Position numbers and translations under genes: made by a program. A stretch of DNA of 64,000 nucleotides, taken from positions 17,438,230 to 17,502,229 of the forward strand of contig NC_045128.1 in assembly GCF_007655135.1 (NCBI RefSeq). Direction: 5' to 3'. Within the stretch, counting starts at the first letter, position 1, and each line of letters begins with the position of its first letter. This DNA comes from Punica granatum. Lineage: Eukaryota; Streptophyta; Magnoliopsida; Myrtales; Lythraceae. Below are positions 13,325 through 64,000 of the stretch, piece after piece. The notes below the pieces were generated by a model, which saw only the letters and a list, made by a program, of their open reading frames with translations, did no database searches and was not told where the DNA came from.

Positions 13325-13596
13325 GCGCTCTACTCCAGAGCTCGAGTCCCTCATCGCACGACCGGGGCATCCCCAGCGAAACAGCCCCCTCAGCGTGAGA
13401 CTGATCCTCTACAAAGCGAAGACCTCGGGGCCATGCATGACGCCATCATCAAACAAGCGCTTCGGTCACACGACAATCCGCAAGCCATAATCTCCACTGC
13501 ACCACCCAGTGCGGTTTTGGCCGAGTGTCAAAGCGAACTGTCCTTCCAACACTAAGCGCCATTCCTTAACATTGATCTTTGATCCTGCATTCCATG

Positions 13597-14870: not shown

Positions 14871-14874
14871 ATGA

Positions 14875-17800: not shown

Positions 17801-20346
17801 TTTTGATGCAAGGTCGGTGGCATTGGACTTCTAACTGAGTGAGGAACACGGTGATAGGTGGCTCGTAGCGAGATTCAACCCGAGCTGACCTGTGCGTTCC
17901 TGCAAAGTTCGGGTTAGAAAAGATGACCAGAGGAACAAACTCGACTGGCACCCGATGAAGAAACGACTCTACTGGAGGCTCCCGGTGGTCTTTTGGTGCA
18001 AGGTCGGTGGCATTGGACTCCTAACTGACTGAGGATCATGCTTGCAGTAGTTTCATGAAGATTAGACATGTCAATTTTCCTGAGAGATGCAAAGAAAACC
18101 GGTAAAAACTGGAAAAAATCTGTGAAGGGAGAAAAGAGAGAAATGGCGGTGGTGCGCGGTTGAGCGGCTCTCGGCACGCGGCCACCTTGTCACGGGGGAG
18201 AGTGAGGGTCATGAGGAACCCCTAGGAAATGATGGCACGACTCGCCGTAGTCGTGAGGTAGTGGAAATGTCCGGGGAGCTCGGGAAGCCGTGAAAACACC
18301 TATTGGACCCGGTTCTGGACAGGGCTGGTTCGGGCTGCTGGGAGCTTCAAATCGCAAAACTAACACCGGAAATGGACTCGGGAGGTCGAATACATGTGGG
18401 GTATGTAGTTTGTTTGAGGCTCGGATAAGTCGGGAAGGAAGAACTCGCCTAGAAATCGGGAAACTCCCTAGGGACCCGATTCTGGGTTGGGCTGGAACTG
18501 CATGCTGGAAGCTTCAAATGCCGAAACTAACACCGGAAATGGACTAGGGAGGTCGAATACATGTGGGATATAAAGTTTGGTCAAGTTTGGTTCGGGTTGA
18601 TTGGCGGTCGCCGGAAAACGGTTGAGTTTTCCGGCAATTTTGCCTTGGTTTCGGGCTGAGGGAAAGCTGGACGAATTTCTGAAAAATGCTGAGCTCTAAG
18701 GGGCTTGAGAGGATTTTCTAGAGTGAGAGAGCTTGAGAGAGAATGGATGGTGAGTTGTGATTAAGTTAATGATGCAATGGGCTTATAAAGGAAGACTTAA
18801 TGGCTTGTTTAGTGAAAACTAAGTGCAATTAGTGGGTGCTTAAGGGATCCGAATTTTTGGAGGGAAGATTAGGGTGGGGAAGTTGTCTTGAAAGGTGATG
18901 GGAGGTGATGGATGGGAGAAGGGAAGTGATGGGTGTAAGAAGATATTTTGAAAATGTGTGGTGGAGGCTCATTTGGCTTGTCTTTAGAGGAGAGCCATGG
19001 CTCGCGGCTTGGCTCGGCTCGGCTCGGCTTGGCTAGCTCAAGGGTCCCACTTGATTAGGAAGAAAGCCGGAAGAAGCTCGGGGCTTGATTGATCACGCAT
19101 TCGATTTCCGTGATTCGCTTGAACGACGAATTATCGATATATGCGCGAATACGGTTTTAATGAGCCTAATATTGACACTCTTCGTATGGGTGAATGCTCG
19201 GGCGTCCCGGGGACTCGAAAGCCGATTTTGCCCCGTTTGGATGATCGGGGTGAAGTTGTCCGTTTCTGTCGCTTGTTCGCGCTTCTGCGTGATATACCGC
19301 TCGTGTCGGCATGCTTTGTGCTTTGGGCAGAACGGTTTACTTGCCGGCCCCGGCTGGAGATCGATATCCGGAGGCGTCCTAAGAATCCGTGAACGGGGCT
19401 TTCTCGGTGTTTCCCGAGTGTTCTGATGTGTTCGGAGAGCTCTGTGATCTCCGTTTGTCAAAAATGAGTCCCGAAGGCTTGTCGGGAGGCGTTTATGACC
19501 ATTAAAACGTCACTCGGGAGCTCGGTATGATTTGCTTGGTCCGAGCCAAAATGATTTCCTAGCCCCTGGGGGTTGTTGGGACTGGGTGGTGCAAAGCTCG
19601 GACGTCAACATTTCCTCGAATGAGCTCTAAGCGCAAGATTCTGCTTGAAAGGGGCCCTTTTGTTGCCGGAATAGTGCTCGGGAAACCTAAATGGATTGTA
19701 CTATGCGATCAGGGTTTGTTTTCCCAGGCCTTGAGGTCTTCGGGATTGGTTGGCGCGGATTTCGTGCACTGACGGTTCATTAAAAGCGTCTCTGGCCACG
19801 TTTCTGTGCAAAAAGGGGCCCTTTCTCCGAGTCGGGATCCGCTCGGGAGACCAAGACTAACTCTGAAAGGCAGTCTCAAACTTATTCCTTGGTCCTGGTG
19901 GTCCTTGGGTGTGTGCAGGCCTGTTTCCGGGTGCCGTTTACTTGTCCGTGGATCGAGCATCCCGGGAGCCCCGTTAGGAAGGCGTCTGCAAATGTTCGGG
20001 AGTGCCCCGGCTTAAGCAGGAGGGTTCTGAAATGCGCTCGGAGGTGCCATTGGTCATTTTGGTACCAAGAGGGATTTTTAAAGTCCCATATTGGATATCT
20101 TCTGACGCTCCGGTGATCCGATGATGAATAGTGCCATTGTGTCGGCTCCGCTGTTTTCGGGGTTTCTCGTTTGTCTGTTCTTTTGACAGTTTTCCTCTGC
20201 CTTTTCAGTGCACCCTGCTTTTCTCTTGTAATTCATGTCTCTTTGCCCGCATATTCGCCTCTGATCGTCGGGTGATGAATAGTAACCCGGGCTTTGGTCG
20301 GAGATTCTCGCTTAGGAAGCCGGTGGGCCAAAATGGGGTGCTGACA
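14875..20346 (-). mobile_element. 3' LTR of element C
   Basis: About 5.47 kb; it begins TGTCAGCACCC at 20346 on the minus strand. The other terminus has lost the usual GCGCACA end (14871-14881 reads ATGAACTCACG). It carries four ~195-bp internal units, hairpin 1 at 15113-15135, hairpin 2 at 14999-15012 and the decamer at 14978-14987. Compared with its partner LTR it has one extra 29-bp copy at 15846-15903. Short ORFs in it recur in other LTR copies by descent only. Confidence 0.85.
15846..15903. repeat. 29-bp tandem duplication private to C's left LTR
   Basis: Two consecutive 29-bp copies of GGCGTTGRACCTCGTGTTCG plus GTGATTTGG. The partner LTR has one copy at about 27737-27765. The duplication therefore arose after, or during, insertion of this element. 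Confidence 0.7.
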
Positions 20347-20362: not shown

Positions 20363-20500
20363 TTACATGCTCGGTTAGAGGATGTAGCCAAAGATTATAA
20401 GAAGCATCCCCTTTTTACACCCAGCGACTGCTCTGATGACGTTCCCCCATGGCTGCTCGTGCCTTGCTTGGATATAATGGGACATTGCGCGGGAAATTAG

Positions 20501-21612
20501 AACCGGGATGGACTCGAATGTAAATGAACCAGGATAGACCTGAATGACCGGGATGGACCCGAATGCAGATGAACCAGGATAGACCTGAATGTGACCGGGA
20601 TAGACCCGAATGCATGAACCAGGATAGACCTGAATGACCGGGATGGACCCGAATGCATGAACCAGGATAGACCTGAATGTGACCGGGATGGACCCGAATG
20701 CATGAACTAGGATGGACCGGAATGACCTGGATAGACCCGAATGCATGAACCAGGATAGACCTGAATGTGACCGGGATGGACCCGAATGCATGAACTAGGA
20801 TGGACCTGAATGACCGGGATAGACCCGAATGCATGAAACAGGATAGACCTGAATGTGACCAGGATGGACCCGAATGCATGAACCAGGATAGACCTGAATG
20901 TGACCAGGATGGACCCGAATGCATGAACCAGGATAGACCTGAATGTGACCGGGATGGACCCGAATGCATGAACCAGGATGGACCTGAATGACCGGGATTG
21001 ACCCGAATGCATGAACCAGGATAGACCTGAATGTGACCGGGATGGACCCGAATGCATGAACTAGGATGGACCTAAATGACCGGGATGGACCCGAATGCAT
21101 GGACCAGGATAGACCTGAATGTGATCGGGATAGACCCGAATGATCGGAATTTAGACCAGATGGACCCGAATAACCGAAATTTAGACCGGGTGGACCCGAA
21201 TGACCGGAATTTTGACCGATTGGACCCTGAGTGACCGGGATTTAGACCGGAAGGATCCGAATGACCGGAATTTAGATCGGACGGACCCGAATGACCAGGA
21301 TTTAGACTGGGCGGACCTAAACGAATGAAAATTAGGCCAAATGAGCCCGAACGACCGGGAGGACCTGAGTGACCGGAATTTAGACCGGAAGGACCTGAAT
21401 GATCGGAAGGAGCTGAGTGAGACCAGGATAGACCTGAATGATCGGGATGGATCCGAATGTGACCAGGATGGACCTGAATGACCGGGATGGACCCGAATGT
21501 GACCAGGATGGACCTGAATGATCGGGATGGACCCGAATGTGACCAGGATAGACCTGAATGACCGGGATGGACCCGAATGTGACCAGGATGGACCTAAATG
21601 ACCGGAATCTAG
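20501..21612 (-). repeat. 45-bp tandem array (family 3)
   Basis: Read on plus, the unit is two related ~22-bp halves, ACCGGGATGGACCCGAATG and ACCAGGATAGACCTGAATG, with CATGA or TG spacers. About 14 regular copies span 20501-21130. From 21130 to 21420 the array breaks into ~30-bp copies containing GGAATTTAGACCGG, then returns to GACC-type units. Because 45 is divisible by 3, frames of up to 184 codons stay open; these are not genes. Confidence 0.9.
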
Positions 21613-22026
21613 TCCGGAAAGCGCTATGTGATATGGCTCGCTTGGGGTTTGGGTTCGAACCGCCTCATGCGCGGTGACTGATGATGATCTCCTATCGTTT
21701 GTTCTTCTTTGAACATCGTTGGCTTAAATGGTGTGGTGCAACCCTTGATGACTTCCGATGCCTTGGGGGCACGATCTACCGTGCGAGGCAGCCATGGGTC
21801 CGTCAGTGGGGATGCCCCTTGGGGTTCCATGCGCATCGCGATGAAATTGCTTCGTCGGTGCTCTGCCCCTGGGGTGGCGGTGTGTTTGACCTGCCGGAAG
21901 CCGATTTTGCTGCTAGGGCGATTGCTTGTTGCTCTGCCAGGTGCCGGCTTTATCGCAGGGGCGATTGTAGTTTGCTGGGGATGCCCCGGTCTCGCGATGA
22001 GGGACTCGAGCTCTGGGGTAGAGCGC

Positions 22027-26761: not shown

Positions 26762-29700
26762 TGTGCGCACCCGAATTTTATCTCGTCAGGGCACGCATGC
26801 GCGCGCCTAAGCAAACGCGGCTTGGGAGTGTCCACCTTCCCGGGGACGCGCGACGGACACGCGTGAGAAGGAGTCGCCACTTACTGTTTACGACTCGTAG
26901 GTCGAGGGCCGTTGAGTCGCCCGGGTCTAGGGGTACGGGGTACACCTAAATGCTAAGGCAACGGTCATGTGGAACCGGAAATTCCGAATTCGGGGGTTCT
27001 ATTACGTGCGGGCCTACATCCCGCACGCCCTTTCGGTACTCTAGTTTGCTAGGCTTGCCGTTTTGTTTATTTACCGCGTGATTTAGGGTTGTGCTTGACT
27101 CGCCCGTTTTGACACCGTAAATTCGATGAATTGGTCAAGTTGGGCCAAACGTCCAAAAGGCGAGTACGCTTGTGCATCGAGGAATCGGTTCACTATCTTA
27201 GTGCTACAATTCACCGAACCATGATGGCCGATTCCCTGCGTGAACCGAAACCACGAGTATCCGAGCTCACTCATCCTTTGGTAGGGATAGACCAACTTAA
27301 CCGATTCGGCACTCGGACCTCTCGCTCATCGATCGGGATCCTTACAAGTATATGAATGAACATGCAAATAGAATTCTTACAATGTTCTCTCGACTAATTA
27401 CAAGGTACAACTGAATGAGTAAATGGATCCTGATCGGTTTGCATTGGGCCAATATTCCGCTCCGGCTCACCGTGCGTTTTGAATGACCGGTAAATAAATT
27501 AAGGCAACGCGGACTCAAAGAGCCGGGGGTCGGGTCCGATCGATCCAACGGTTTGCAGGGGAATCGGTTGGTTCCCGCTGTACCCGATGGACCGGTCGAG
27601 TTCCCGAGTGATATCTAAACCCGTTTCACGCGTCCAATCCAAATTTGCCTTACACATAGGCCGCATTCGGAGTATGACGGTGAATCGAGGCTAGATCCCA
27701 TTCCGCACTCGGGTTGCACGCACTCAGTGAGTTAGGAGGCGTTAGACCTCGTGTTCGGTGATTTGGGGCGTTGAACCCCGTGCGACACGTAACCTATGGG
27801 CTCGGGCCCGAACCGCAATAAATCATCATAGGCAAATGGAAAACAGAAGAAAACTGATAAACTGATGGAAAACAAATAACAACTGACAAACGTAGATGAA
27901 TACAGACAAATGGTGTATTAAGTCGAATGTACGTGATTTAATCAGTTATTAACCGGGGTTGATTAACAAACAATATATCTAACCTAGGCAAACATAGAGG
28001 GCGGGCTAGAATATGGTTCTAAGCCAATTATATGTGTGAATTTGTTTTAGGACTCTTATTCAGTTAAGTGTCGCTACGGTTTCACCGAATTAGCCAAACT
28101 CGTGTTTTGACTCTAGATTGGAATCTAATATTCCGCCTATCCATTATCTAATGTTTGTTTAAGTCGAGTGCACAATTAATCCGGTTCTTCGTGTTCATAA
28201 CTGAACTGAAATGTTCCCCACCGAATATACGATAAGAAGAAAGAAACACCGAAAATGAACGGAAGGGGCCGCGCGAATGAAACTCGCACCCGAACGGGTT
28301 GCCCTTTCTCGTTCATAGCTCTAGGTGTTTCCGACCCCCTAACGCCTAGGGTATCGGTGACTCACGGAATGACGATTATGCCCTTGGATGATAAAATTGC
28401 AATGTTCATGTATAAATTGAAGATCGCGTCACACGAAGGAGTCTAAGAAGGACTCTCATGCCCCAACTCGGGCCGCCTCAAATTGGGCCCGGACACGAGT
28501 CATAGCACGTGAGTACTCACTAGACATCAATTCTATTCGTGTTACGCGACTCGGTATTTTGAAATTGTGAATTTTTTAATGGAAAAGGACATTCTCGCCG
28601 TTCCGTAAATCATCGATGCGTTTACAAATTAATAACCAATTTACCCAATTATTTAGTCCGAGTGATCTAATTAGCCGAATTAAACGTCTTGTTTACCGTT
28701 TGTGAAGTGGTTTAATGATTGAGACCGCGAACCTCAATTGTTATGGATCAATGAAATGATTGTTCGATATTAACGTACCTAACATACGAATTAACATGAT
28801 ACCAATGATTCAATGAAAATTATGATCACAATCAATTCCAAGAATCGGTTTTGACTGTTTCTTGCATACGTAAAACGTCAAACATGATAATAACACACAT
28901 TCTATAAAGCCGATGCCGCCATGATCTTGGGTGCGCAAACAAGCACATGATGCAAACGCAAATATCGTATTTAAAGGGAATCGATAAAACGGCGTCGGCT
29001 CATGCAACAACGAAATAAAATAAAATAAAATAAATACGGGAACCGACTGATTTCGGGGCGAAAGAGAGCTCCTTGGACCCATTTAAGTCGTAGAGAAATG
29101 TTACCTAGCCTCGGAACACGAGGAAAGAGTCGGAGAAGTGGCAAAGGGAGTCGGGAGACTCGGTTGGAACGAACAGACCCGAACCGGTGCAGTCGGGTCG
29201 ACTGGCAGACCCGACTGGCAGTCTGGCTTGTCGGGGCTGTACCGGTTGATCGGGATGGAATTTTCGTGCGGGGCCAGTTGCGTTGGATTCCCAAGAGACT
29301 AAGGATCGCGCCTGTAGTGGTTTCGGAAGGAGAGCATGCGTAGGTTTTCTGGAAATCGAAAACAAAGTCGGGTTAGCTAGCAGAAAACAGAACCGACTGG
29401 GCGGAACTGACCCGACTGGGCAGGTCAGAAAGAAATGGCTGTCCCGGAGGCTCCCGGTGGTATTTTGCTGCAAGGTCGGCGGCATTGGACTCCTAACTCA
29501 CTGAGGATCATGCCTGCGGTGGTTTCGGAAGGAGAGCATGCGTATATTTTTCGGAAATCAAAAACAAAGTCGGGTTAGCAAAAAAAAGACAGATCCAGTC
29601 GAGACAAGCAGACCCGACTGGCACCCGGAAAAGAAAATGCTCTACAGGAGGCTCCCGGTGGTCTTTTGATGCAAGGTCGGTGGCATTGGACTCCTAACTG

Positions 29701-32209
29701 AGTGAGGAACACGGTGATAGGTGGCTCGTAGCAAGATTCAACCTGAGCTGACCTGTGAGTTCCTGCAAAGTTCGGGCTAGAAAAGAAGACCAGAGGAACA
29801 AACCCGACTGGCACCCGATGAAGAAACGACTCTACGGGAGGCTCCCGGTGGTCTTTTGGTGCAAGGTCGATGGCATTGGACTCCTAACTGACTGCGGATC
29901 ATAACTGCAGTGGTTTCATGAAGATTAGACATGTCAATTTTCTTGAGAGATGCAAAGAAAACTGGTAAAAACTGGAAAAAATCTGTGAAGGGAGAAAAGA
30001 GGGAAATGGCAGTGGTGCGCGGTTGAGCGGCTCTCGGCACACGACCACCTTGTCACGGGGGAGAGTGAGGGTCATGAGGAACCCCTAGGAAATGATGGCA
30101 CGACTCGCCGTAGTCGTGAGGTAGTGGAAATGTCCGAGGAGCTCGGGAAGCCGTGAAAACACCTAGTGGACCCGGTTCTAGACAGAGCTGGTTCGGGCTA
30201 CTGGGAGCTTCAAATCGCTAAGCTATTACTGGAAATGGACTCGGGAGGTCGAATACATGTGGGGTATGTAGTTTGTTTGAGGCTCGGATAAGTCGGGAAG
30301 GAAGAACTCGCCTAGAAACCGGGAAACTCCCTAGGGACCCGATTCTGGGTTGGGCTGGAACTGCATGCTGGAAGCTTCAAATGCCGAAACTAACACCGGA
30401 AATGGACTCGGGAGGTCGAATACATGTGGGATTCAAAGTTTGGTCAAGTTTGGTTCGGGTTGAGTGGCGGTCGCCGGAAAACGGTTGAGTTTTTCGGCAA
30501 TTTTGCCTTGGTTTCGGGCTGAGGGAAAGCTGGACGAATTTCTGCAAAATGCTGAGCTCTAAGGGGCTTGAGAGGATTTTCTAGAGTGAGAGAGCTTGAG
30601 AGAGAATGAATGGTGAGTTGTGATTAAGTTAATGATGCAATGGGCTTATAAAGGAAGACTTAATGGCTTGTTTAGTGAAAACTAAGTGCAATTAGTGGGT
30701 GCTTAAGGGATCCGAATTTTTGGAGGGAAGATTAGGGTGGGGAAGTTGTCTTGAAAGGTGATGGGAGGTGATGGATGGGAGAAGGGAAGTGATGGGTGTA
30801 AGAAGATATTTTGAAAATGTGTGGTGGAGGCTCATTTGGCTTGTCTTTAGAGGAGAGCCATGGCTCGCGGCTTGGCTCGGCTCGGCTCGGCTTGGCTAGC
30901 TCAAGGGTCCCACTTGATTAGGAAGAAAGCCGGAAGAAGCTCGGGGCTTGATTGATCACGCATTCGATTTCCGTGATTCGCTTGAACGACGAATTATCGA
31001 TGTATGCGCGAATACGGTTTTAATGAGCCTAATATTGACATTCTTCGTATGGGTGAATGCTCGGGCGTCCCGGGGACTCGAAAGCCTGTTTTGCCCCGTT
31101 TGGATGATCGGGGTGAAGTTGTCCGTTTCTGTCGCTTGTTCGCGCCTCTGCGTGATGTACCGCTCGTGTCGGCATGCTTTGTGCTTTGGGCAGAACGGTT
31201 TACTTGCCGGCCCCGGCTGGAGATCGATATCCGGAGGCGTCCTAAGAATCCGCGAACGGGGCTTTCTCGGTGTTTCCCGAGTGTTCTGATGTGTTCGGAG
31301 AGCTCTGTGATCTCCGTCTGTCAAAAATGAGTCCCGAAGGCTTGTCGGGAGGCGTTTATGACCATTAAAACGTCACTCGGGAGCTCGGTATGATTTGCTT
31401 GGTCCGAGCCAAAATGATTTCCTAGCCCCTGGGGGTTGTTGGGACTGGGTGGTGCAAAGCTCAGACGTCAACATTTCCTCGAATGAGCTCTAAGCGAAAG
31501 ATTCTGCTTGAAAGGGGCCCTTTTGTTGCCGGAATAGTACTCGGGAAACCTAAATGGATTGTACAATGTGATCAGGGTTTGTTTTCCCAGGCCTTGAGGT
31601 CTTCGGGATTGGTTGGCGCGGATTTCGTGCACTGACGGTTCATTAAAAGCGTCTCTGGCCACGTTTCTGTGCAAAAAGGGGCCCTTTCTCCGGGTCGGGA
31701 TCCGCTCGGGAGACCAAGACTAACTCTGAAAGGCAGTCTGAAACTTATTCCTTGGTCCTGGTGGTCCTTGGGTGTGTGCAGGCCTGTTTCCGGGTGCCGT
31801 TTACTTGTCCGTGGATCGAGCATCCCGGGAGCCCCGTTAGGAAGGCGTCTGCAAATGTTCGGGAGTGCCCCGGCTTAAGCAGGAGGCTTCTGAAATGCGC
31901 TCGGAGGTGCCATTGGTCATTTTGGTACCAAGAGGGATTTTTAAAGTCCCATATTGGATATGTTCTGACGCTCCGGTGATCCGATGATGAATAGTGCCAT
32001 TGTGCCGGCTCCGCTGTTTTCGGGGTTCCTCGTTTGTCTGTTCTTTTGACAGCTTTCCTCTGCCTTTTTAGTGCACCCTGCTTTTCTCCTGTAATTCATG
32101 TCTCTTTGCCCGCATATTCGCCTCTGATCGTCGGGTGATGAATAGTAACCCGGGCTTTGGTCGGAAATTCTTGCTTAGGAAGCCGGTGGGCCAAAATGGG
32201 GTGCTGACA
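26762..32209 (-). mobile_element. 5' LTR of element C
   Basis: Complete 5448-bp LTR. It starts TGTCAGCACC at 32209 (minus) and ends GGTGCGCACA at 26762. It is nearly identical to 14875-20346. TATA-like box at 30644-30654 (minus), hairpin 1 at 27005-27027, hairpin 2 at 26891-26904 (with a C-A mismatch at the loop closure), decamer at 26870-26879. The bases to its right (CCGTC at 32210) belong to the plus LTR it interrupted. Confidence 0.9.
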
Positions 32210-43774: not shown

Positions 43775-43930
43775 TTGCATGCTCGATTAGAGGATGTAGC
43801 CAAAGATTATAAGAAACACTCCCTTTTGGGTCCGGCGACTACTCTGGTACCGTTCCCCCATGGTCGCTCGTACCCTACTTGGATGTATCGGGATATTGTG
43901 CCTGGAACAAAAATTCACAGGTTGGGGGGA

Positions 43931-45198
43931 TTCAAACAAGAATTTGAACACCGAGACGGACCCGGACAGAAATTTAAATCGGGATGGACCCGAACAAGAA
44001 TTTAAAACCGGGATGGACCCGAAATAGGAATTTAAATCGGGATGGACCCGAAACAGGAATTTGAAACCGGAATGGACCCGAACAAGAATTTGACACCGGG
44101 ATGGATCGGAACAGGAATTTAAACCGAGATGGACCCGAAACAGGAATTTGAAACCGGGATGGACCCCAACAGGAATTTAAACCGGGATGGACCCGAACAG
44201 GAATTTGAAACTGGGATGGACCGGAAGAGGAATTTAAACCGGGATGGACCCGAAACAGGGATTTTAAACCGGGATGGACCCGAAACAAGAATTTAAACCG
44301 GGATGGACTTGAACAGGAATTTGAAACCGGGATGGACTCGAAACAGGGATGGACCCGAACAGGAATTTGAAACCGGGATGGACCCGAACAGGAATTTAAA
44401 CCGGGATGGACCCGAACAGGAATTTGAAACCGGGATGGACCCCAACTGGAATTTAAACCGGGTTGGACCCGAACAGGAATTTGAGACCGGGATGGACCCG
44501 AACAGGAATTTAAACCGGGATGGACCCGAACAGGAATTTGAGACCGGGATAGACCCGAACAGGAATTTAAAATCGGGATGGACCCGAACAGGAATTTAAA
44601 CCAGGATGGACCCGAAACAGGAATTTGAAACCGGGATGGACCCGAACAAGAATTTAAACCGGGATGGACTCCAACAGGAATTTGAGACCTGGATGGACCC
44701 GAACATGAATTTAAAACCGGGATGGACCCGAACAGGAATTTAAACCGGGATGGACCCGAAACAGGGATTTGAAACCGGGATAGACCCGAACAGGAATTTG
44801 AAACCGGGATGGACTCGAACAAGAATTTGAAACCAGGATGGACCCGAACTGGAATTTAAATCGGGATGGACCTGAACATGAATTTAAAACCGTGATGGAC
44901 CCGAACTGGAATTTAAACCTGGATGGACCCGAAACTGGAATTTGTAACCAAGATTGACCGGAGCAGGAATTTAAACCGGGATGGACCCGAACAGGAATTT
45001 GAAACCGGGATGGACCCGAACAGGAATTTAAACCGGGATGGACCCGAACAGGTATTTGAAACCGGGATGGACCCGAACAGGAATTTAAACCGGGATGGAC
45101 CCGAACAGGAATTTGAAACCGGGATGGACCCGAAATAGGGATTTGAAACCGGGATGGACCCGAGACGGGAATTTAAAAAACTGGGATGGACCCGAGAC
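43931..45198 (-). repeat. 28/29-bp tandem array, ~44 copies (family 4)
   Basis: The unit is CCGGGATGGACCCGAACAGG followed by AATTTGAAA (29 bp) or AATTTAAA (28 bp), often alternating as 57-bp dimers. The core CCGGGATGGACCCGAA is shared with the 45-bp array of element C. A 57-bp period is divisible by 3 and keeps a 282-codon minus-strand frame open, which is an artefact. Confidence 0.9.
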
Positions 45199-45733
45199 AC
45201 TTGCTTGGGGATCGCGTAAAGCGTCAGGTGACATGGTTTGCTTGGCGTTGGGCCTGGATCACGTGCGGCGACTGATGATGATTCCTCGATGCTTGCCCTT
45301 CTTTGGACGTCAGTTGTTTGGTAGCGTGGAACATCCCTTGACGGTTTCCGACGTATCGAGAGCACGACCTGTCGCGTGAGACAGATATGAGTCCGTTAAG
45401 GAGGAAATGCCCCTTGGGGTTCCATGTGCATCTACAGAGAAGAGCATAACTCTTCGTTAGTCATGTGGACAGTGGTGCGCGCTGAGTGTACAAGGCTGAT
45501 GCTGTCCCAAAGGTGTTGATCTGCTGTAGATTGGCGTTGCTGCCGCAATGAAGTTGTTTCGTCGTTGCTTGGCCCTTGGGGTGGCGGTGTGTCTGATCTG
45601 CCGGAAGTCGGCTTTGCTGCTAGGGCAGTTGCTCGTTGCTATGCCAGATGCCAGCTTTGTCGCAGGGGCGATTGTAGTTTGCTGGGGATGCCCCAGTCTT
45701 GCGATGAGGGACTCGAGCTCTGTGGTGGAGCGC

Positions 45734-54600: not shown

Positions 54601-56716
54601 CCTTCTTCGTCGTTTCGTGTTCGTTCCTTGGAGTTGAGTGCATTTATGCTCGTGTTCTACCGCTAGCCATGCATCAATTTCGCGACGGATAAATTGACCT
54701 CGGGTCGTTACCCATTAAACCCATGGCACCTATAATATGAGATCACTACCATCGAATAATGTCACAAACGGGATGAACGGGACGTATTATTTGGATAATT
54801 AAATCATTTGGACTAAACAATTGGGTGAATCAATCCTCAATTTGTAAACGCATCGATGATTTACGGAACGATGAAAATGCCCTTGTTCATTAAAAATCTC
54901 ACAATTTCAAAATACCGAGATACGTAACACGAGTGGAATTGATGTCTAATGAGTACTCGAATACCATGACTCGAGTCCGGGCCCGATCTGAGGCGGCTCG
55001 AGTCGAGATGCGCGAGTCCTCCTTAGACTCCTTCGTGCGACGTGATCTCCAATTTGCATACAAACACCACAATTTTATTCCAAGGGCATAATTGCCATTC
55101 CGTGACTCACCGATACCCTAGGCGCTAGGGAGCCGGAAACGCCTCGATTTATGGACTGAAAGGGGCAACCCATCCGAGTACGAGTCTCATTCGTATAGCC
55201 CATTCCGTCCATTTTCGGTGTTCCTATCTTCCTATCATAGATTCGGTGGGGAGCATTTTACTTCAATTACAAAACACGAACAACCGGATTAATTGTACAT
55301 TCGACTTAATCGAACCCTAGACAATGGATAGGTGGGATAATAGATCCCAATCTAGAGTCAAAACACGAGTTTGGTTAAATCGGTGAAAAAGCAGTGACAT
55401 TTAACTGAATAAAAGTCATAAAACAAACACACACATGTAATTGGCTTAGAACCTTATCCTAGCCCGCCCTCTATGTTTGCCTAGGTTAGATGCATTGTTT
55501 GCCAATCAACCACGGATAATAACTGATTAAATCACGTACAGTCGGCCTAATACCCAATTCGTTTGTATTCACTGACACTTGTCAGTTATTGTCAGTTGCT
55601 TTCTGTATTGTGTCAGTTATATCAGTTTTCTTCTGTTTTATTCTTGCTCTTGATGATTTATTGCAGTTCGGGCCCGAACCCATAGGTTACGAGTTGCACG
55701 GGGTCCAACGCCCCAAATTACCGAACACGAGGTCCAACGCCTCTTAACTCACCGAGCGCGTGCAACCCGAGTGCGGAATGGGATCTAGCCTCGATTCACC
55801 GTCACACTCCGAATACGGCCTATGTGGAAGGCGGATTTGGATTGAGCGCGTGAAACGTGTCTAGATATCACCCGGGAGCTCGATCGATCCAACGGTTACA
55901 GTGGAAACAAGTCGTTTTTCTGCAAACCGTCGGTTCGTTCGGACCCGACCCCCGGCTCTTCGAGCCCGCGTTGCCTTAATTTGTTTATCGGTTATCCAAA
56001 ACACACGGTGAGCCGGAGCAGAATATTGGCCCAATGTAAACCGATCGGGATCCATTTATTTCGTTCAGTTGTATTCTGCAATTATTCGAGTGTACATTGT
56101 GAGGATCTTATTTGTATGTTTATTCATATACTTGTAAGGATCCCGGTCGGTGAGCAAGAGGTCCGAGTGTCGAGTCGATTAAGTCGGTCTATCTCACCAA
56201 GGGATGAGTAAGCTCGAATAATCATAGTCTTGGTTCGCGCAGGGAATCGACCATCACGGTTCGAAGAACTGTAACGCTAAGATAGCGAACCGATTCTTTG
56301 ACTCACAAGCCTACTCATCCTTCGGATTCTTGGCCCAACTCAATCGATTCATCGATTTTACGGTGTCAAAACGGGCGAGTCAAGTGCGACCCTAAATCAC
56401 GCGGTAAATAAACAAAATGGCAAGCCTAGCAAGCTAGAGTACCGAAAGGGCGTGCGGGATATAGGCCCGCACGTAATAGAACCTCCGAATTCGGAATTTT
56501 TGGTTCCGTATGACCATTGCCTTAGCATTTAGGTGTACCCCGTACCCCTAGACCCGGGCGACTCAACGGCCCTCGACCTATGGGTCGTAAACAGTAAGTG
56601 GCGACTCCTTCTCACGTGCGTCTGTCGCGCGTCCCTGGGAAGGTGGACACTCCCAAGCCGCGTTTGCTTAGGCGCGCGCATGCGTGCCCCGACGAGATCA
56701 AATTCGGGTGCGCACA
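51673..56716 (+). mobile_element. 5' LTR of autonomous-type element E
   Basis: Complete 5044-bp LTR, TGTCAGTACCCC to GGTGCGCACA, with PBS at 56720. It is shorter than the other LTRs mainly because it has one instead of three or four ~195-bp units and one copy of the ~165-bp block. Its U3 and R differ clearly from the A/B/C copies, while the last 2 kb is closely similar. TATA-like CTATAAAG at 53011; hairpin 1 at 56451-56473; hairpin 2 at 56574-56587 with a TATG loop; decamer at 56599-56608. It is inserted into a minus-strand LTR after TTCCG (possible target duplication). Confidence 0.9.
53011..53018 (+). promoter_or_regulatory. TATA-like box of LTR E
   Basis: CTATAAAG at 1339 bp from the LTR start, positionally equivalent to the TATA-like motifs in the other LTRs. 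A start about 30 bases downstream would give a leader of about 3.7 kb before the PBS. Confidence 0.5.
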
Positions 56717-56719
56717 GCT

Positions 56720-56737
56720 TGGCGACTCCACTGGGGA
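56720..56737 (+). other. Primer-binding site, element E
   Basis: TGGCGACTCCACTGGGGA, three bases after the LTR end at 56716. Its first ten bases also occur at 56599-56608, inside the LTR. Confidence 0.9.
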
Positions 56738-57325
56738 GACTTAGAGGGTTCGGGCTCGTTCCCGCTTGTTTTGTTTGCTTGTCTATTTACCGCTTCCGCA
56801 TTTCCCGCTTATCTATTTTATGCACTCTTATTTCCCGCACATGCATTGCACATCATACTAGTTTCTTAGGTACCTTGTCCGACATCCCACGGGCACCAAT
56901 ATAGGAAGCTAGGTTAGTCAGAGGTTCCGAGTAAGGGAACGGATCGAGTCGGCTATGCCACCGAACCGGCCCCCAAAGATCCTCGCTCGATTTCAAGGAA
57001 TTCACACCCTTGAGTCGGGAGCCCCCATCCCTAGTTAGCAGTTCTCCCAGTAGCACCGAAAGCCATGCATACACAGGGACCGTCATGCTGGACCAATTTT
57101 TACCTCCATGCCGTCAACCGACCCAAAGTCGAGTCCTTGAGTCGGCCCGTAGTTTTTTTTAGGACGGGCATTTTGTTGTTTTTGTAAGAAAGAGCGATGT
57201 ATACTGTAAAGAACACAATTATAGTTTATCTTTCCGCATTGCATACATTCTTTCGAAAAACCTAGGACATTACATTGATTTGATCCTAAAAATGTTAAGT
57301 CGACATCTCCCCCATCTAGGTAAGG
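56738..57325 (+). other. Untranslated leader between PBS and ORF1
   Basis: About 590 bases, conserved in A (557-1085), B (9339-9880) and C (26200-26740, minus), including the block GGTTAGTCAGAGGTTCCGAG and the block around GATCCTCGCTCGATTTC. Conservation in elements that encode no protein points to an RNA function such as packaging or dimerisation (inference). It ends with AG|GTAAGG at 57320, just before the ORF1 start codon. Confidence 0.6.
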
Positions 57326-58660
57326 ATGGATCGCTCGCATCCCTGTCTCAGGCTCGATGACATCATCATGCCATCCGCGGACATTACTCGCCTCTGGAAC
57401 ACATTCCGCCCAGTGGACCGGGCATTCCTTCGGCTCATCGTAGGAGACTTGCCATTACTCGCTGATTCCCCCATTGACTGGACCCTACTTGAAGCTGCTA
57501 TTAGTTATTGGGACATTCAGCGGGCTGTATTCAGTTTTCAGGGGACAGAGCTGGCTCCTACAGTAGAGGAGTACGCGGTACTCATTCAGCGACCCACGCC
57601 GACCCTCGACATCGTGGTGCCCAATCAGTTCGCCACGATACAGAGTAGACTCGCCATCCTCTTAGATCTCCGCGAAGAAGAAATTCGTCTTGAACTTCAG
57701 CATGGACGGGAGCATAGCGTTAGGACCACATGGCTCATAGACTTCATACATGTTCGTTCTCTCAATGCCAGGGAGGAATCATACCAGCATGACGCCTGTC
57801 ACGGGTTCCTCTTGCTCATCTTTGGGACCATCCTGTTTCCCCACTCGTCGAACCTCATAGACGGGGCACTTGCCCTAGTCGTCCTCCAAGTGGTAGGGGG
57901 CCATAGTTATGTAGAAGCCGTCTTGGCTGAGACCATTCGGTCTCTTGACTATGTACGAGAGGTTCGACGTGGTAAAATGAGAGGAGCTCCGCATCTTCTT
58001 CAGATTTGGCTCCTCGGACACATTAGGCCATTCTGTTCATCACATCCCTTTTCCTGCATCGCTGACAAACGTTCGCTCATCGCTCGCCTACTTCAAGTGT
58101 TTCGGCCCTCCGATCGCGACTACACTGACTGGATCCAGTTCTTCAAGAGACTCACCCCGGCACAGTTTTCATGGGCTGCTCGCTGGAATCCCGGTGGTCC
58201 CATGACCGTCGGATGTCCCACAAACATAGGACTCCCTCTGATCGGTCACTTAGGGAGCACACTTGTTTTCCCAGCCCGAGTCATCAGACAACTTGGCGGC
58301 TTACAGGATATTCCTAGGGAGGCAGATCACACTCCCCACCGCTTCACATGGACGGATATTATGGCTTTACTTCCAGATAGAGTTCTGCGAATTAGAGAAG
58401 TTCAACATCTATGGAACACGCGCACCGTTCAAGAGCTCTATTTCCCGGGACACCCTACCGACGACGAACGAGCTTTCTCAGCTACTGTAGCATATGTGGC
58501 GCAATTCCATCCGCAGGGACTCACACCCGTTCGTCGACGACATTTGCCTCGGATTCCCCGCACACTGCATGCAGACGTTCCAGACGCGGAGAGCTCAGTC
58601 CAAGGAGTCATGCACACAGAGTTGCAGTCCATCAAAGAAGAGAGATCGATTCCGTTGTGA
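57326..58660 (+). CDS. ORF1, plant mobile domain/DUF7745-like protein
   Basis: A 444-residue protein upstream of gag and not part of the gag-pol frame. The N-terminal part has the plant mobile domain signature: a Trp (W52, in IDWTLLEAAISYWD), then FSFQGTELAPTVEEYAVLI (about residues 70-88). I associate this pattern with PMD/DUF7745 proteins. Helical, Trp-rich segments follow (residues 130-330), and the C-terminus turns charged. An extra ORF upstream of gag is a known feature of Ogre-type Tat elements; its function there is unknown. The ATG at 57326 (context AAGGATGG) is the first in this frame and follows the conserved leader. The frame ends early: at about 58643 a net 2-base loss shifts out of a coiled-coil tail that continues in another frame. 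Cellular PMD proteins act in silencing and development, so a host-derived or host-interacting role is possible. I am confident of the reading frame and fairly confident of the family. Confidence 0.8.
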   Translation: MDRSHPCLRLDDIIMPSADITRLWNTFRPVDRAFLRLIVGDLPLLADSPIDWTLLEAAISYWDIQRAVFSFQGTELAPTVEEYAVLIQRPTPTLDIVVPNQFATIQSRLAILLDLREEEIRLELQHGREHSVRTTWLIDFIHVRSLNAREESYQHDACHGFLLLIFGTILFPHSSNLIDGALALVVLQVVGGHSYVEAVLAETIRSLDYVREVRRGKMRGAPHLLQIWLLGHIRPFCSSHPFSCIADKRSLIARLLQVFRPSDRDYTDWIQFFKRLTPAQFSWAARWNPGGPMTVGCPTNIGLPLIGHLGSTLVFPARVIRQLGGLQDIPREADHTPHRFTWTDIMALLPDRVLRIREVQHLWNTRTVQELYFPGHPTDDERAFSATVAYVAQFHPQGLTPVRRRHLPRIPRTLHADVPDAESSVQGVMHTELQSIKEERSIPL

Positions 58661-58830
58661 GCTTGCGGATATTCGCGCAGAACTCACTGACCACAGAGAG
58701 CTTTAGAGCGAGTGGGCTTAGATTCACGTACGCATAGCAAACCAAGACAGGGAGATAGCACGTTTGAGCGCTATGCTGGACCAAGCGCGGGCAAAAGCTC
58801 GCAAGGCTTTTACCCTTAGGATTAGTCTGT
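58644..58830 (+). pseudogene. Out-of-frame C-terminal coiled coil of ORF1
   Basis: From 58644, in the frame one base on from ORF1, the sequence reads DRFRCELADIRAELTDHREL and reaches TAG at 58704. It resumes to a second TAG at 58719 and continues as RIANQDREIARLSAMLDQ and a basic end. Heptad-like spacing of Leu and Ile suggests a coiled coil. Both stops could be former CAG (Gln) codons. ORF1 was probably about 60 residues longer before decay. Confidence 0.6.
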
Positions 58831-59135
58831 TAACGTTTTTGCCCTCGCTCAGACCCACGACACTTTCGAGCGGCCACCGAGCGCAAAGGGATATCGGCTT
58901 TACGTTTATGTTCCTTTCTTTTCTTCCGAATGTTCTATTTTGTAAAATCATGGAGCTTGGAGCTAATCCATGTAATGACATTAGTGTTTGAAAACTCATG
59001 CATCTCATACATTTCCTCATCTTACTTAATTCCGCACTTATCATTTGAGATATTGGTGTCTGTCCTTACACATTCTTGGAATCTAGGTGATCACAACTGG
59101 CGTCACACTGCTACCCGACTCATCAACGTCTCAGG

Positions 59136-62100
59136 ATGGCGGAAGGAGATCACGTCGATATTTCCGAAGAAGTCAACCTTTCGGTCCCGACCCTCTCTCA
59201 ACCACCGCAGACACACGCCCTGCCACCTCTTACTCCTGCAGGCGTACTCCCGGCATACTCCGGTGCCCTTCCGACGCATCTCCCGCCCCCGGCACCTTCA
59301 GGGGCGCCTCTCCCACCGGCCTCACCAACATCCGCTGCCACCAATGACCAAGCCCGCATTGCGGCCCTCGAGGGCACGGTCAACCAAATGGCCACTAATA
59401 TGGCGGAGCTACTCGCCTTGCTCAGAGGACCTAACTGGGCCTCCTCGAGTTCTACTCCTCCCCCGGGACCGGGACCAACAGCCGATCCAACCCCGTGGGC
59501 TCCACCGATCCAAGCCCCGGAGAACGTTGAAGCTCCCGCACCACTAACGCTGTATACGTCCACGGTCTACCCCTTCACAAGTCAATTTCCGCCACCGCCG
59601 GCCCCTTCGGTAGTCTCTCTTCCACCGGCTACCTTCCTATCCGCGGAGCACATCCTGTCTGCACCTCCACCTGCTCCCATACCGGCTCCGGCTATGATCT
59701 ACACGGCGCCTCCGCCGACGGTTTTCCCAGCAACCGCCGCACCCGCCCCAACTCATCCTCAAGCCACGGAGCTTCCTCCCTATCCGACTCTACAGCCTCA
59801 CGCCGGCCTCTCCTACCAGGCACCGCCCCCCATAAACACCACCTTCCACGAACCGGGCACGCCGACTCACGCGGCCCAGTTCGCCTCCCCAACGCATTTC
59901 TTCCCCGAGGCTGACACCGAACAGGAACGAAGGCTCAAGAGGATGGAAGAGACGATACGGGCCCTACAAGCGGGTGATGCTCGTCCCAACGCATGCTACG
60001 GCGACTGCAGCCTATTCCCGACTATGCGGCAACCCCCAAAGTTCAAGATCCCAGAGTTCAAGACTTATGAGGGCACTACGGATCCGCGCCACCATCTCCG
60101 CCACTACCGGGGAAAGATGCTGCAATACTGGGAGTACGAGGAGTTTGTCATTCACTCCTTCCAAGATAGCCTGTCGGGATCGGCCCTCGATTGGTTCATG
60201 TCACTGACGGCCGAAGACATTCCGACGTGGGAAGACCTATCCCGGAAGTTCACCGATCAATATCGATACTGCGCGGAAGCACCTCCCACCCTCCTGGAGT
60301 TGAGCACCAAAGAGATGGCGAGGGGTCAAAGATTCGAGGAATACGCCACCAAATGGCGCAGCCAAGCGGCGAAGCACATCCCCCCAATTAGCGAAGCACA
60401 ACAGATTCAGCTGTTCCACTCTACGCTGAGAGGGGTATATTACTCGTATTTGTTGGCGCACACTTCCTCATTCTCCGATCTCATCGAGGCCGGGAAAAAG
60501 CTTGATTTGGGCATCAAGCTCGGAAGGATGGAGGACCCCACCAACAAAGGGGAAGAGTCATCAAAGAAGGTCTCCATGGCACCGTCATCTTCCGGCGGGA
60601 GGAGGGCGAAGGAAGTCTCGGTAAACGCCGTCCACACGGCACATCAGGCGCCCCAGCAATACTCAGTGAATTTCACGGCCGCACCTCCCGTAGCTTCCTC
60701 CTTCGCCCCACACGCGCCTCAATATCGGCCTCAACCCCCTACCCAACCGATCTACTATTCCACGCCGCCGCCTCCACCCCTATCTGCGGCGCCGTCACCA
60801 GTCGTCCACCATTATGATCCTACTCTGTCCCAAGCTCCTCAATACCAACCCCCAGCTCCTAAAGCCTCTCACCCGACGCAACGAGTCCCGCCCCCGCAAA
60901 GTCAACAGGGCGGTGCAGCACCATCGCGACCCCGCCGACAATACCCGACCCTACCAGTCCCGCCTTCCCACGTCTACCAGCAAATTCGCGAGAAGGTCGG
61001 AACAATAGCGCCCGGCCCGAGCTTCGATCCAACCATTCAAGATCAAAGCAAGCAGTGCGAATATCATCGAGGGGCACCGGGGCATACCCTGGACACTTGT
61101 TGGAGATTGAGGGAGAGGATCCAAGAGATGATCGATGCGAAGGAGCTCGTATTCAATGCTGTAAAGCCTCCGACCGTACAGGCTAATCCTCTCCCCGACC
61201 ATGGACCGGCTCCGGGGCCCTCTATCAATATGATCACTATATGCGCATCGGGAGAGGGCGAAGGCGAGCCAAGTTGTTCCTCCCCCTTCGTGATCGAATA
61301 CGTACCCGCGGAAGCTGCAGTCGGGTTCACCGGGATGGACATACCTCATGCCCCGCTTGTTATAGACGTCCCCGCCCCGGAGCCATACTCGAGCGATAGG
61401 GTCCCCTGGATCTATGACGGAGCTGTCGGAAACCTGGAGCAACAATTTGGTGTCATGGGCATAACCCGCTCAAGACGGCTGTATGAGAATCCAGCGGTCT
61501 CGGACAAAGGAAAGGCGCTCGCAATAGGAGCCGAAGCCACGCCCGAAGTCTCGCCTACTCCGCCCAAGAAAGTGACAGAAGAGGAGGCCGAAGCCTTCAT
61601 GAAGGTCATCAAAGCGAGTGAGTATAAGGTGGTGGAACAGATGGCCAAATCTCCGGCCCATATCTCATTGCTCGGCCTCCTACTCAACTCGGAACCTCAC
61701 AGGGAGGCCCTCATGCGGGTCCTGACGGCCGCACAAGTCCCCAAAGGGTCGCCCCCAGACCGGATAGAGGAAACCATCAGCACCATTTTCTCCAATACCA
61801 TCTCGTTTTTGGACGATGAGCTCCCTTCTGAAGGATGCGCGCATTTCCGGGTACTGCACATCGTTTGCAAGTGCAACAACCATATCATGGGCCGGGTCAT
61901 GATCGACAACGGTTCCGCGCTCAACGTATGCCCGGTGACCACTTTGAAGCAGATGAATGTGGATCTCAACCGCATCCGCCCTAGCAAAACAGCGGTCCGA
62001 GCCTTTGACGGTTCGAGGAGAGAGGTGAACGGGGAGATCGACCTCCTCATAGATATCGGCCCATGCTCCTTCAGCGTCACATTCCAAGTGTTGGATATCC

Positions 62101-62783
62101 CGAACGCTTTCAGTCTACTCCTTGGAAGGCCTTGGATTCACTCGGCTGGCGCCATTCCGTCCTCGCTACATCAGAAGGTGAAATTCATCGTCGAGGAAAA
62201 GATCATCACGGTCAAGGGGGAGGAAGATTACGCCATCTACAAGGAGACGGCGGTTCCCTACATCAGTGTCGGGGACGACGAAAACTTACCCTTCTACTCC
62301 TTCGAGACCATCTCCGTTATTCGGGATTACGGAGAGGTCGGGCCGTCCCGCACCGACCGCATGATAGGGAAGGTCCTTTTGCGCCACAATTACATTACAC
62401 CGGCCTTGGGGCGCGAGGGCAAGGAATCAACCGCCCCATTGAAGTTGAAGCGTGCAAGCATAGGAGGGGACTTGGCTTTCGCCCCTCCTGCCATGAAATT
62501 ATTGAGGCCCGCCGGGGCAACCATCTCCACCGCCTCGCCACGCACTATGGTAGGCTCAACAGGGGCATCCCAGTCCCTCCGCTATTGCACTTTTTCCCGG
62601 GACCTCCACTCATCATCGGGAGCACCTCTGACGGCCCTTCCTCGGACTTCGACGACGCGACTGACACCTTGCCAACCGTGTATGCCGTCACCGAGGAGAT
62701 TCCTTCAGGGGTTCACATCCGCCAGGCGTAGGAAGACGAGGAGCTTAGCAATTGGACCTCAGTCCTGCGCTACTCGGCTGTGA
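59136..62783 (+). CDS. gag-pro: gag-protease polyprotein, Ty3/gypsy Tat/Ogre lineage (frameshifted near 3' end)
   Basis: 1215 residues. In order: a Pro/Ala-rich N-terminal region (1-290) with a short coiled coil at about 71-98; a retrotransposon gag (capsid) domain at about 300-465 (KFKIPEFKTYEGTTDPRHHL, then ALDWFMSL and WEDLSRKFTDQY); and a second Pro/Gln-rich linker. A variant zinc knuckle, C-X2-H-X5-H-X4-C, lies at 641-655. An aspartic protease has catalytic D924-N-G in MIDNGSALNVCP and a conserved LLLGRPWIHSAGAIP (about 993-1007). DNG instead of DTG/DSG is common in this lineage. The first ATG of the frame was taken as start, 50 bases after a possible splice acceptor. Near 62385-62408 the frame slips, so the last ~125 residues before the stop at 62781 are not the ancestral ones. 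The true C-terminus continues in the next frame. Confidence 0.9.
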   Translation: MAEGDHVDISEEVNLSVPTLSQPPQTHALPPLTPAGVLPAYSGALPTHLPPPAPSGAPLPPASPTSAATNDQARIAALEGTVNQMATNMAELLALLRGPNWASSSSTPPPGPGPTADPTPWAPPIQAPENVEAPAPLTLYTSTVYPFTSQFPPPPAPSVVSLPPATFLSAEHILSAPPPAPIPAPAMIYTAPPPTVFPATAAPAPTHPQATELPPYPTLQPHAGLSYQAPPPINTTFHEPGTPTHAAQFASPTHFFPEADTEQERRLKRMEETIRALQAGDARPNACYGDCSLFPTMRQPPKFKIPEFKTYEGTTDPRHHLRHYRGKMLQYWEYEEFVIHSFQDSLSGSALDWFMSLTAEDIPTWEDLSRKFTDQYRYCAEAPPTLLELSTKEMARGQRFEEYATKWRSQAAKHIPPISEAQQIQLFHSTLRGVYYSYLLAHTSSFSDLIEAGKKLDLGIKLGRMEDPTNKGEESSKKVSMAPSSSGGRRAKEVSVNAVHTAHQAPQQYSVNFTAAPPVASSFAPHAPQYRPQPPTQPIYYSTPPPPPLSAAPSPVVHHYDPTLSQAPQYQPPAPKASHPTQRVPPPQSQQGGAAPSRPRRQYPTLPVPPSHVYQQIREKVGTIAPGPSFDPTIQDQSKQCEYHRGAPGHTLDTCWRLRERIQEMIDAKELVFNAVKPPTVQANPLPDHGPAPGPSINMITICASGEGEGEPSCSSPFVIEYVPAEAAVGFTGMDIPHAPLVIDVPAPEPYSSDRVPWIYDGAVGNLEQQFGVMGITRSRRLYENPAVSDKGKALAIGAEATPEVSPTPPKKVTEEEAEAFMKVIKASEYKVVEQMAKSPAHISLLGLLLNSEPHREALMRVLTAAQVPKGSPPDRIEETISTIFSNTISFLDDELPSEGCAHFRVLHIVCKCNNHIMGRVMIDNGSALNVCPVTTLKQMNVDLNRIRPSKTAVRAFDGSRREVNGEIDLLIDIGPCSFSVTFQVLDIPNAFSLLLGRPWIHSAGAIPSSLHQKVKFIVEEKIITVKGEEDYAIYKETAVPYISVGDDENLPFYSFETISVIRDYGEVGPSRTDRMIGKVLLRHNYITPALGREGKESTAPLKLKRASIGGDLAFAPPAMKLLRPAGATISTASPRTMVGSTGASQSLRYCTFSRDLHSSSGAPLTALPRTSTTRLTPCQPCMPSPRRFLQGFTSARRRKTRSLAIGPQSCATRL

Positions 62784-62793
62784 TCGCCGATGT
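62400..62793 (+). pseudogene. Ancestral frame of protease C-terminal part up to the splice donor
   Basis: In the frame of codons starting at 62402, translation reads GLGARGQGINRPIEV (a G-patch-like Gly-rich motif), then IPVPPLLHFFPGPP and SSDFDDATDTLPTVYAVTEE. It stops at TAG 62729-62731, then continues as NWTSVLRYSAVIADV to 62793. This is far more retroelement-like than the same stretch in the long frame. The TAG sits where a Gln codon CAG is plausible. This copy therefore carries both a frameshift and a nonsense mutation. Confidence 0.7.
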
Positions 62794-63007
62794 GTAAGAT
62801 TTATCTATGTATGAGATGTTTCCCGCGTGTCGGCGTAGCCGTAGGCCACACGACGGAAGAGGGAACTCTGTTATGGATTCGTGATCCTCACTATCAATGA
62901 ATTCCCTATATGCATTTTTTGAATCCTTGTCTATTCCACTCTCTCTTCCTTACTCTTTTGTTCATATCATTCTAAATTTCTCTAAGACAATTCTTTCAAT
63001 TCTCCAG
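62794..63007 (+). other. Intron between protease and reverse transcriptase (214 nt)
   Basis: Donor GT|GTAAGATTT at 62794; acceptor with a pyrimidine-rich tract ending TTCAATTCTCCAG at 63007; possible branch sites in TTCTAAATTTCTCTAAGAC. The segment is T-rich at its 3' end and has stops in the frames that matter (TAA at 62795). Removing it joins the ancestral protease frame (codons from 62792) to the pol frame (codons from 63009) with no base gained or lost. A spliced intron at this place is a hallmark reported for Ogre elements. Confidence 0.7.
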
Positions 63008-64000
63008 GCTCCACTCGAATCCAAATCTTCGATGCGTTGATTCGAACCCATCCGAAGAATGTCTCGAAGAGCCTGGACCCATATACTTCGGGGAAGGGCT
63101 CGACGAAGACAGTCTAGGGCCTGAGATAGAAGAGAGTTTGCGCCGCCTCGAGGATCGCCAGCTCACCTCGCTCGAGCCAACAGAAGAGATCAACGTGGGC
63201 ACTAAAGAGGAACCCCGCGTCCTTAAGATCGGTACGAGCCTCGACCCAACACAACGGGTCCGAATGATCGACTTCCTGACAAGGTATCAAGAAGTCTTCG
63301 CCTGGTCCTACGCCGACATGCCGGGTCTAGACCCGTCAATAGTAAAGCACTTCCTCCCGCTGGACACCGAGAAGTTCCCGCCCAAACGGCAACAATTGCG
63401 ACGGCAACGGGCAAGCCTCCTTCTCCGCATCAAGGAGGAGGTTGTCAAGCAGATCAACGCGGGCTTCCTCGAGGTCTGCAATTATTCTGAATGGGTTGCA
63501 AACATCGTGCCGGTGGAGAAGAAAGATGGAAGGGTTGGAGTCTGCGTCGACTATCGGGACCTCAATAAGGTCAGCCCCAAGGACGATTTTCCCTTGCCCC
63601 ACATCGACATACTAGTTGACAACACGGCGCGCCACTCTCAGTTCTCTTTCATGGACGGCTTCTCCGGATACAATCAAATTCGGATGGCCGAGGAAGACAA
63701 GATCAAGACGACGTTCACTACCATGTGGGGAACCTTTTGTTACCGCGTCATGCCTTTCGGCCTCAAGAACGCCGGAGCAACTTATCAGAGGGCCATGGTC
63801 ACGTTATTCCACGACATGATGCACAAGGAAGTCGAGGTCTACGTCGACGACATGATTGCCAAGTCCAAAGAAGGAGAGGACCACCTCGTTAATCTGAAGA
63901 GCCTCTTCGATCGTTTAAAGGAGTACAAGCTTCGGCTCAATCCGGCGAAATGCATGTTCGGCGCTCGATCGGGAAAATTACTAGGATTCGTGGTCAGCGA
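63008..64000 (+). CDS. pol: pol: reverse transcriptase N-terminal part (continues past window)
   Basis: Open without a stop from 63009 to the window end in codons starting at 63009. After a ~90-residue acidic linker (GPIYFGEGLDEDSLGPEIEE) comes the Ty3/gypsy RT: VRMIDFLTRYQEVFAWSYAD, INAGFLEV, VANIVPVEKKDGR, VCVDYRDLNKVSPKDDFPLP, FSFMDGFSGYNQI and MPFGLKNAGATYQRAM. The catalytic YVDD is at 63840-63851, followed by LRLNPAKCMFGA and LLGFVVS. The wording (VCVDYRDLNK, DDMIAKSK) fits the Tat/Athila side of Ty3/gypsy. There is no start codon before 63264, consistent with expression by splicing to gag-pro. All RT residues I can check are intact. RNase H, integrase, polypurine tract and 3' LTR must lie to the right. 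Confidence 0.93.

Follow-up and report, generated by a model that had tools for sequence, protein, structure and literature searches.

Ogre elements, which belong to the Tat group of Ty3/gypsy retrotransposons, carry two open reading frames (ORFs) that lie 274 bp apart on average; in pea and Medicago, this gap is spliced out of some of the transcripts as an intron (PMC6317226; Ogre splicing is also mentioned in PMC12786077 and PMC3735527). Here, we analysed a plus-strand Ty3/gypsy element located at the right-hand end of a 64,000-nucleotide (nt) stretch of the pomegranate (Punica granatum) genome (assembly GCF_007655135.1, contig NC_045128.1, positions 17,438,230 to 17,502,229 of the forward strand; hereafter the window), in which an earlier note had placed an intron between protease and reverse transcriptase (RT), naming Ogre as the precedent. 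From the genomic evidence, we estimate a probability of about 95% that positions 62794-63007 form a genuine spliceosomal intron, carried in pol by an Ogre-like Ty3/gypsy family of pomegranate. This estimate draws on an exact exon junction, the phase of the intron and the joined frame, the conservation of the donor in divergent copies, and genomic copies that lack exactly the intron. Such an intron is a known Ogre-type feature, of which the pomegranate family is a further case, and Ogre was correctly chosen as the precedent.

As in Ogre, a gag-protease ORF is followed by an ORF that runs from RT onward, the two being split by a short intron (204-218 nt in the pomegranate copies, compared with the mean of 274 bp). 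An ORF with a plant mobile domain (PF10536) lies upstream of gag, likewise as in Ogre, where it is present in 57% of the elements (PMC6317226), and the pomegranate family has, like Ogre and Retand, a second RNase H of archaeal type that separates RNase H from integrase. The order RT, RNase H, RVT_3, integrase was found in gene models P0110 and P0113 and at four of six family loci, the other two loci being without part of it. Unlike Retand, also a Tat group and the only one with a Transposase_28-type extra ORF (23% of the elements; PMC6317226), the extra ORF here matches DUF7745 and the plant mobile domain only. The family differs from the Ogres of pea and Medicago in its host, and further possible differences from legume Ogres are the G-patch domain that ends gag-protease, the stop codon inside the donor, and the numbers of joined and intron-bearing copies (2 versus 382). 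We file the family as Ogre-like by its domains and intron. In Ogre, the primer is tRNA-Arg (PMC9289625).

Among Ty1/copia elements, Bianca has two ORFs about 172 bp apart on average (PMC6317226), a gap that suggests the same kind of control in another superfamily. In BARE, 104 nt are spliced out, which creates a stop codon and gives an RNA for a single protein (PMC3735527), and EVADE forms subgenomic RNAs by alternative splicing (PMC12786077). The pomegranate family would resemble both in that alternative splicing separates the products of one element, and would differ from BARE in that splicing yields the RNA for gag-protease-pol. G-patch domains have been reported in Gypsy long terminal repeat (LTR) elements of dicots as well, where, in the consulted part of PMC9289625, they are not treated together with an intron. 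A limited literature search, covering papers in part, returned no earlier mention of spliced genomic copies, of a stop codon internal to the donor or of a G-patch next to the intron, and we make no claim of priority; nor did it return an account of a gag/RT intron in pomegranate, which the consulted part of the clove paper PMC9271057 does not treat. One scan of viral contigs, which may omit records near the window's own genome, gave no relatives.

The donor GTAAGA occupies 62794-62799 and the acceptor TTCTCCAG 63000-63007, which together delimit an intron of 214 nt and agree with the sites proposed earlier. Codons start at positions that are 2 mod 3 in the upstream G-patch frame and 0 mod 3 in the RT frame, and a valine codon is split into 62792-62793 (GT) and 63008 (G), so that the join of 62793 to 63008 is exact and the intron is in phase 2. 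The claim of the earlier note that this join links the protease frame exactly to the RT frame was thus borne out, while its description of the intron as in-frame failed, as a length of 214 nt is 3n+1. The stop-containing gap that it had drawn at 62729..63010 held for 62794-63007, while 62729-62793 proved to be exon, in which TAG at 62729 is a nonsense codon (TAG in 3 and CAG in 37 of 40 close copies, the window included). In unspliced RNA, the upstream frame is ended by the TAA within the donor (62795), with TGA following at 62882; the RT frame stays blocked as far as 62973, and the open frame that contains RT starts at 62976. Since a GTAAG donor in phase 2 always includes TAA, the donor itself carries the stop.

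Pairing the 4 GT in 62735-62796 with the 3 AG that give an exon start in 62965-63059 yielded 12 combinations, two of them in phase and both using the donor at 62794 (exon starts 62987 and 63008). By pyrimidine content, the acceptor at 63008 is joint first with five others among 139 YAG sites in 57320-63998, and it has the highest T share of these six. The donor is moderate, matching 5 of 8 consensus positions, and 31 GT sites in the same interval (itself included) reach at least this score, so that taken by itself it does not exceed chance; the evidence beyond chance is comparative and comes from the copies. The intron is 60% AT, compared with 40% and 44.5% in the flanking exons, and its 3' half is 47% T.

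The whole genome (320 Mb in 474 contigs) was searched for the exon junction with the gapped pattern GCYGATGT-N(0-30)-CTCCACTCRAAYCC, in which either in-phase acceptor was allowed. The exon words were found joined at two places and separated by 200-230 bases at 382 places (reversed-pattern controls, 0 in both cases); as the words had to match exactly, decayed copies, whether joined or intron-bearing, escape these counts. Both joined matches read GATGT directly followed by GCTCC, which is the exact join of 62793 to 63008, and the gap started with GTAAG in 97 of 100 rows inspected by eye out of the 382. In both intron-less copies the frame across the junction is open through the entire 3 kb fetched, and both lie inside element copies, with gag-region matches upstream and the second RNase H and integrase downstream, as expected if whole spliced genomic RNA had been reverse transcribed. 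Two chance deletions exactly between the splice sites are very unlikely, which makes these copies a signature of spliced RNA, and its rare reverse transcription is their best explanation. Over 3 kb, the two copies share 81% identity, and they differ in their distance to the 40 close copies (copy 1: 96.9-97.9% on the exon 1 side and 98.7-100% on the exon 2 side; copy 2: 82.6-83.8% and 79.1-79.9%; median to best), and so probably represent two separate intron losses. The ratio of 382:2 indicates that copies nearly always derive from unspliced RNA, while it does not give the fraction of RNA that is spliced. It fits the earlier expectation that genomic RNA escapes splicing, which mostly appears to be so, and that relatives keep GT and AG with few or no intron-less copies, the two found being exact splice products.

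Conservation was examined in a close and a divergent set of copies. The close set consists of the 40 copies that were scored, out of 1217 candidates, in a search with the query 62400-63400, the window among them; at 94-100% identity, their matches span nearly the full query and take in the intron. All 40 introns are 214 nt long and start with GTAAG, and 39 end with AG. No stop was found in the G-patch exon frame of 32 copies and in the RT N-terminal frame of 30, and frame-breaking lengths were seen in seven copies upstream and seven downstream. Divergence amounts to 1.5% in the intron, 3.0% in the exons and 4-8% at four-fold sites, and in 20 copies (window included) to 0.3% in the intron versus 4.0% in non-coding spacer. 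A valley of low divergence extends over about 62560-63160 in the 40 copies and comprises the intron and both exon edges, synonymous sites included, with four-fold sites diverging by 0-4.3% across 62521-62793 and 63008-63160 and by 8-15% farther out. Because low divergence extends into both exons, four-fold sites included, a constraint specific to the intron was rejected; recent shared ancestry or recombination accounts for the low intron divergence, and the pattern suggests recombination or a recent shared source. The ratio of nonsynonymous to synonymous differences (pN/pS) was below 1 in both exons (G-patch exon, 0.27; RT N-terminus, 0.18) and amounted to 0.34 over the segment from the acceptor to the first ATG of the RT frame.

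The divergent set (alignment A1) holds 40 introns chosen by eye for variety from 100 of the 382 places, plus the window; since it was found via intact words beside both sites, it favours little-decayed ends. Its 41 introns are 204-218 nt long and differ by 23% in mean pairwise comparison (maximum 41%), and 38 of them retain GTAAG, 35 retain AG (six read AA). Column diversity is 0.03 at the donor versus 0.22 in the following 17 columns. Folding of the window intron was no better than that of shuffled sequences (z -0.76; donor region, z -1.03). A GC-rich hairpin at 62823-62856 (CCGCGUGUCGGC...GCCACACGACGG), within the first half of the intron, is paired in 94.6% of cells in the 41 copies, and its covariation was not above shuffles.

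Residues 880-1130 of the open frame 59091-62783, which cover the protease region, match 838 proteins, 120 of which, all named Punica granatum, were taken as a set of gene models; these are predictions. The exon 1 tail is present in 80 of the 120 models, 57 of which also have an RT part. Tail and RT linker occur together in 49 models, and in 20 of these the join falls precisely on the predicted codon (Val in 19, Met in one); in the 20, the linker protein is 64-89% identical over up to 110 residues and aligns from residue 1 (19 models) or 3 (one model). Another 23 models have the tail and no RT, and ten of them terminate at the site of the donor stop, with ...DV or ...NV as their last residues. 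The existence of both kinds of model (20/49 and 10/23), together with the TAA kept in 38/41 donors, agrees with the earlier proposal that full-length RNA gives gag-protease only and spliced RNA gives gag-protease-pol. One pomegranate annotation merged ab initio, homology and RNA-seq evidence (PMC5999313).

Several observations weigh against the reading of 62794-63007 as an intron. All the evidence for splicing comes from genomic DNA and predicted gene models, and the exon side of the donor is poor (GT instead of AG). The intact splice sites of the 40 close copies carry little information, because about 62560-63160 is low in divergence throughout, and in the divergent set GT and AG are both kept in 32/41 introns, 9/41 having lost one or the other. 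There, the acceptor barely stands out from its surroundings, with a diversity of 0.18 over five columns versus 0.24 over the last 25; in a CAG context a methylated C decays, and with this decay and the weak acceptor signal only the donor gives a clear signal in the divergent introns. A pN/pS of 0.35 was obtained in one intron frame too (other frame, 1.5), from few differences, so that the pN/pS test lends weak support. The more distant of the two intron-less copies may stand for an old intron-less lineage and not for a loss. Among the gene models with tail and linker, 29/49 do not use the exact junction, and eight more models have the RT core without the linker; many of the off-junction models look like predictions across broken copies. 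In addition, the full-length models P0110 and P0113 fuse protease to RT without G-patch and linker. Because no AG directly precedes the corresponding window position, a deletion in the DNA is likelier than splicing in these two, and they possibly reflect an internal deletion that gave one continuous intron-free frame.

Recoding between gag and pol is common in many retroelements, and as the upstream and RT frames differ here, any unspliced route to RT would need some shift. A ribosome crossing the 214-nt segment by frameshifting or by reading through stop codons would, however, find no overlap between the frames: with stops in the upstream frame at 62795 and 62882 and an RT frame that opens only after 62973, it would have to both pass stops and shift frame. 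Moreover, it is exactly the GT-AG segment that is absent from two genomic copies, and we regard this route as extremely improbable. RT could also be initiated internally, by re-initiation or on a subgenomic RNA, from the ATG at 63264, the first in its frame, which lies 5' of the RT domain proper. Yet the 85 codons from the acceptor to 63264 belong to a segment whose protein sequence is conserved among the 20 exact models, a conservation that would be needless for an internal start, and spliced retrocopies exist, making internal initiation very unlikely. That the gap reflects mere decay of one dead copy, with splice-like sites arising by chance, would agree with the decayed state of the window copy and with the 30 other sites in 57320-63998 that score as well as the donor. 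This explanation is refuted by the copies: the segment recurs in the corresponding position at 382 places, where the exon words are 200-230 nt apart, the donor stands out among divergent introns, and exact intron-less copies occur; we give it practically no weight.

A further possibility accepts the intron and denies it a regulatory role, with constitutive and full splicing, and intron-bearing copies dominating through the packaging of unspliced RNA. Donor and acceptor form a serviceable pair, and the spliced fraction is not given by genomic data. In contrast, the Ogres of pea and Medicago splice only a subset of their transcripts (PMC6317226), and a gag-protease frame ending in the donor, kept in 38/41 divergent copies, would be useless under full splicing, which leaves this possibility improbable in our view.

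If 62794-63007 is, as we favour, a spliceosomal intron, RNA that retains it would serve both as the genome and as the message for gag-protease-G-patch, with translation ending at the TAA inside the donor. Spliced RNA would join the G-patch exon to RT, RNase H, the second RNase H and integrase in one frame and act as the message for the full polyprotein, and the spliced fraction would presumably set the gag:pol ratio. Intron-bearing RNA would overwhelmingly be the form reverse transcribed into new copies, and spliced RNA rarely so, the two perhaps being sorted by nuclear export or packaging. G-patch domains occur in proteins that activate spliceosomal DEAH helicases. Because gag-protease ends in a G-patch encoded directly upstream of the intron, its product might conceivably feed back on the spliceosome or on export and thereby set intron retention, with the donor doubling as its stop; we mention this as a long shot.

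The window copy itself is a fossil, a broken and truncated member of the family. Besides the nonsense codon at 62729, it has a frame-breaking change just 5' of the G-patch relative to 7/7 copies long enough to compare, its similarity to RT and RNase H ends near window position 64517, and beyond that point the 7 kb searched downstream gave no match for either the second RNase H or integrase. It is too broken to carry out the gag-protease/pol splicing scheme itself, and as it is dead, the intron system is a property of the family.

From its 5' side, the element begins with the 3' part of an LTR-like long repeat (54762..56716, +; at least 2 kb, ending ...CA at 56716), identified by self-BLAST and reading of the sequence; several other copies in the window match 54762-56716 with the same end point. 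A primer-binding-site-like sequence, TGGCGACTCCACTGGGGA (TGGCGACTCC... from 56720), was read directly at 56720..56737 (+), 3 nt past the LTR end. The extra ORF with DUF7745 and plant mobile domain lies 5' of gag at 57326..58660 (+, first ATG 57326; PF24924, E 4e-26; PF10536, E 4.5e-13, 49.5 bits, cutoff 34.9), and is followed by the gag-protease coding region at 59136..62395 (+, first ATG 59136; gag, PF03732, E 4.4e-06). The end of exon 1 (62399..62793, +), delimited by Pfam and aligned copies, contains the G-patch at the end of gag-protease, shortly 5' of the intron (62399-62476; PF01585, 23.2 bits, cutoff 22), and a conserved tail in the frame that joins RT. Beyond the intron (62794..63007, +), which was defined by splice sites, frames and copies, exon 2 (63008..64000, +) encodes a linker and RT (PF00078, E 2.9e-27) and runs past the window into RNase H. 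Loci L041-L060 are 95-96% like the window near the intron, yet up to 18% different in the spacer before gag (58500-59300), some being without parts of this spacer and one without any match there, which indicates that the family is a mosaic of 5' subtypes.

A strong donor-like sequence, AGGTAAGG, lies at 57318 (57314-57325), directly before the ATG of the extra ORF, and is kept in 15/15 copies compared; an acceptor-like AG at 59085-59086 (59081-59088), before gag, is kept in 20/20. The two sites may delimit a 5' intron that holds the extra ORF; this was not supported by a search for the exact joined word, which gave 0 matches in the genome, unjoined copies with these words not being counted. 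In the window, the 8-base repeat ATCTAGGT is present at both the donor-like and the acceptor-like place, and it is possibly another reason for the conservation of these sites.

Elsewhere in the window, two 5.5-kb direct repeats (14880-20346 and 26772-32209) are 97% identical, lie on the strand opposite to the LTR at 56716 and are probably the LTRs of a giant element that has no long ORFs. The same LTR recurs elsewhere in the window, on both strands. Tandem arrays at 13517-14934, 20459-21616 and 43907-45202, with units of about 37-40, 43-45 and 29 bases, lie inside or beside LTR-like repeats.

Retroelements need more Gag than Pol, and they need unspliced RNA as their genome. The pomegranate family appears to meet both needs by means of its intron, and the genome records the leak of this system: of the 384 places counted with a single pair of exon words, 2 appear to have been copied from spliced RNA. 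Exact intron-less copies are transcript-free evidence of splicing that is applicable to any plant with Ogre-like elements, and counting them could show how tightly reverse transcription excludes spliced RNA.

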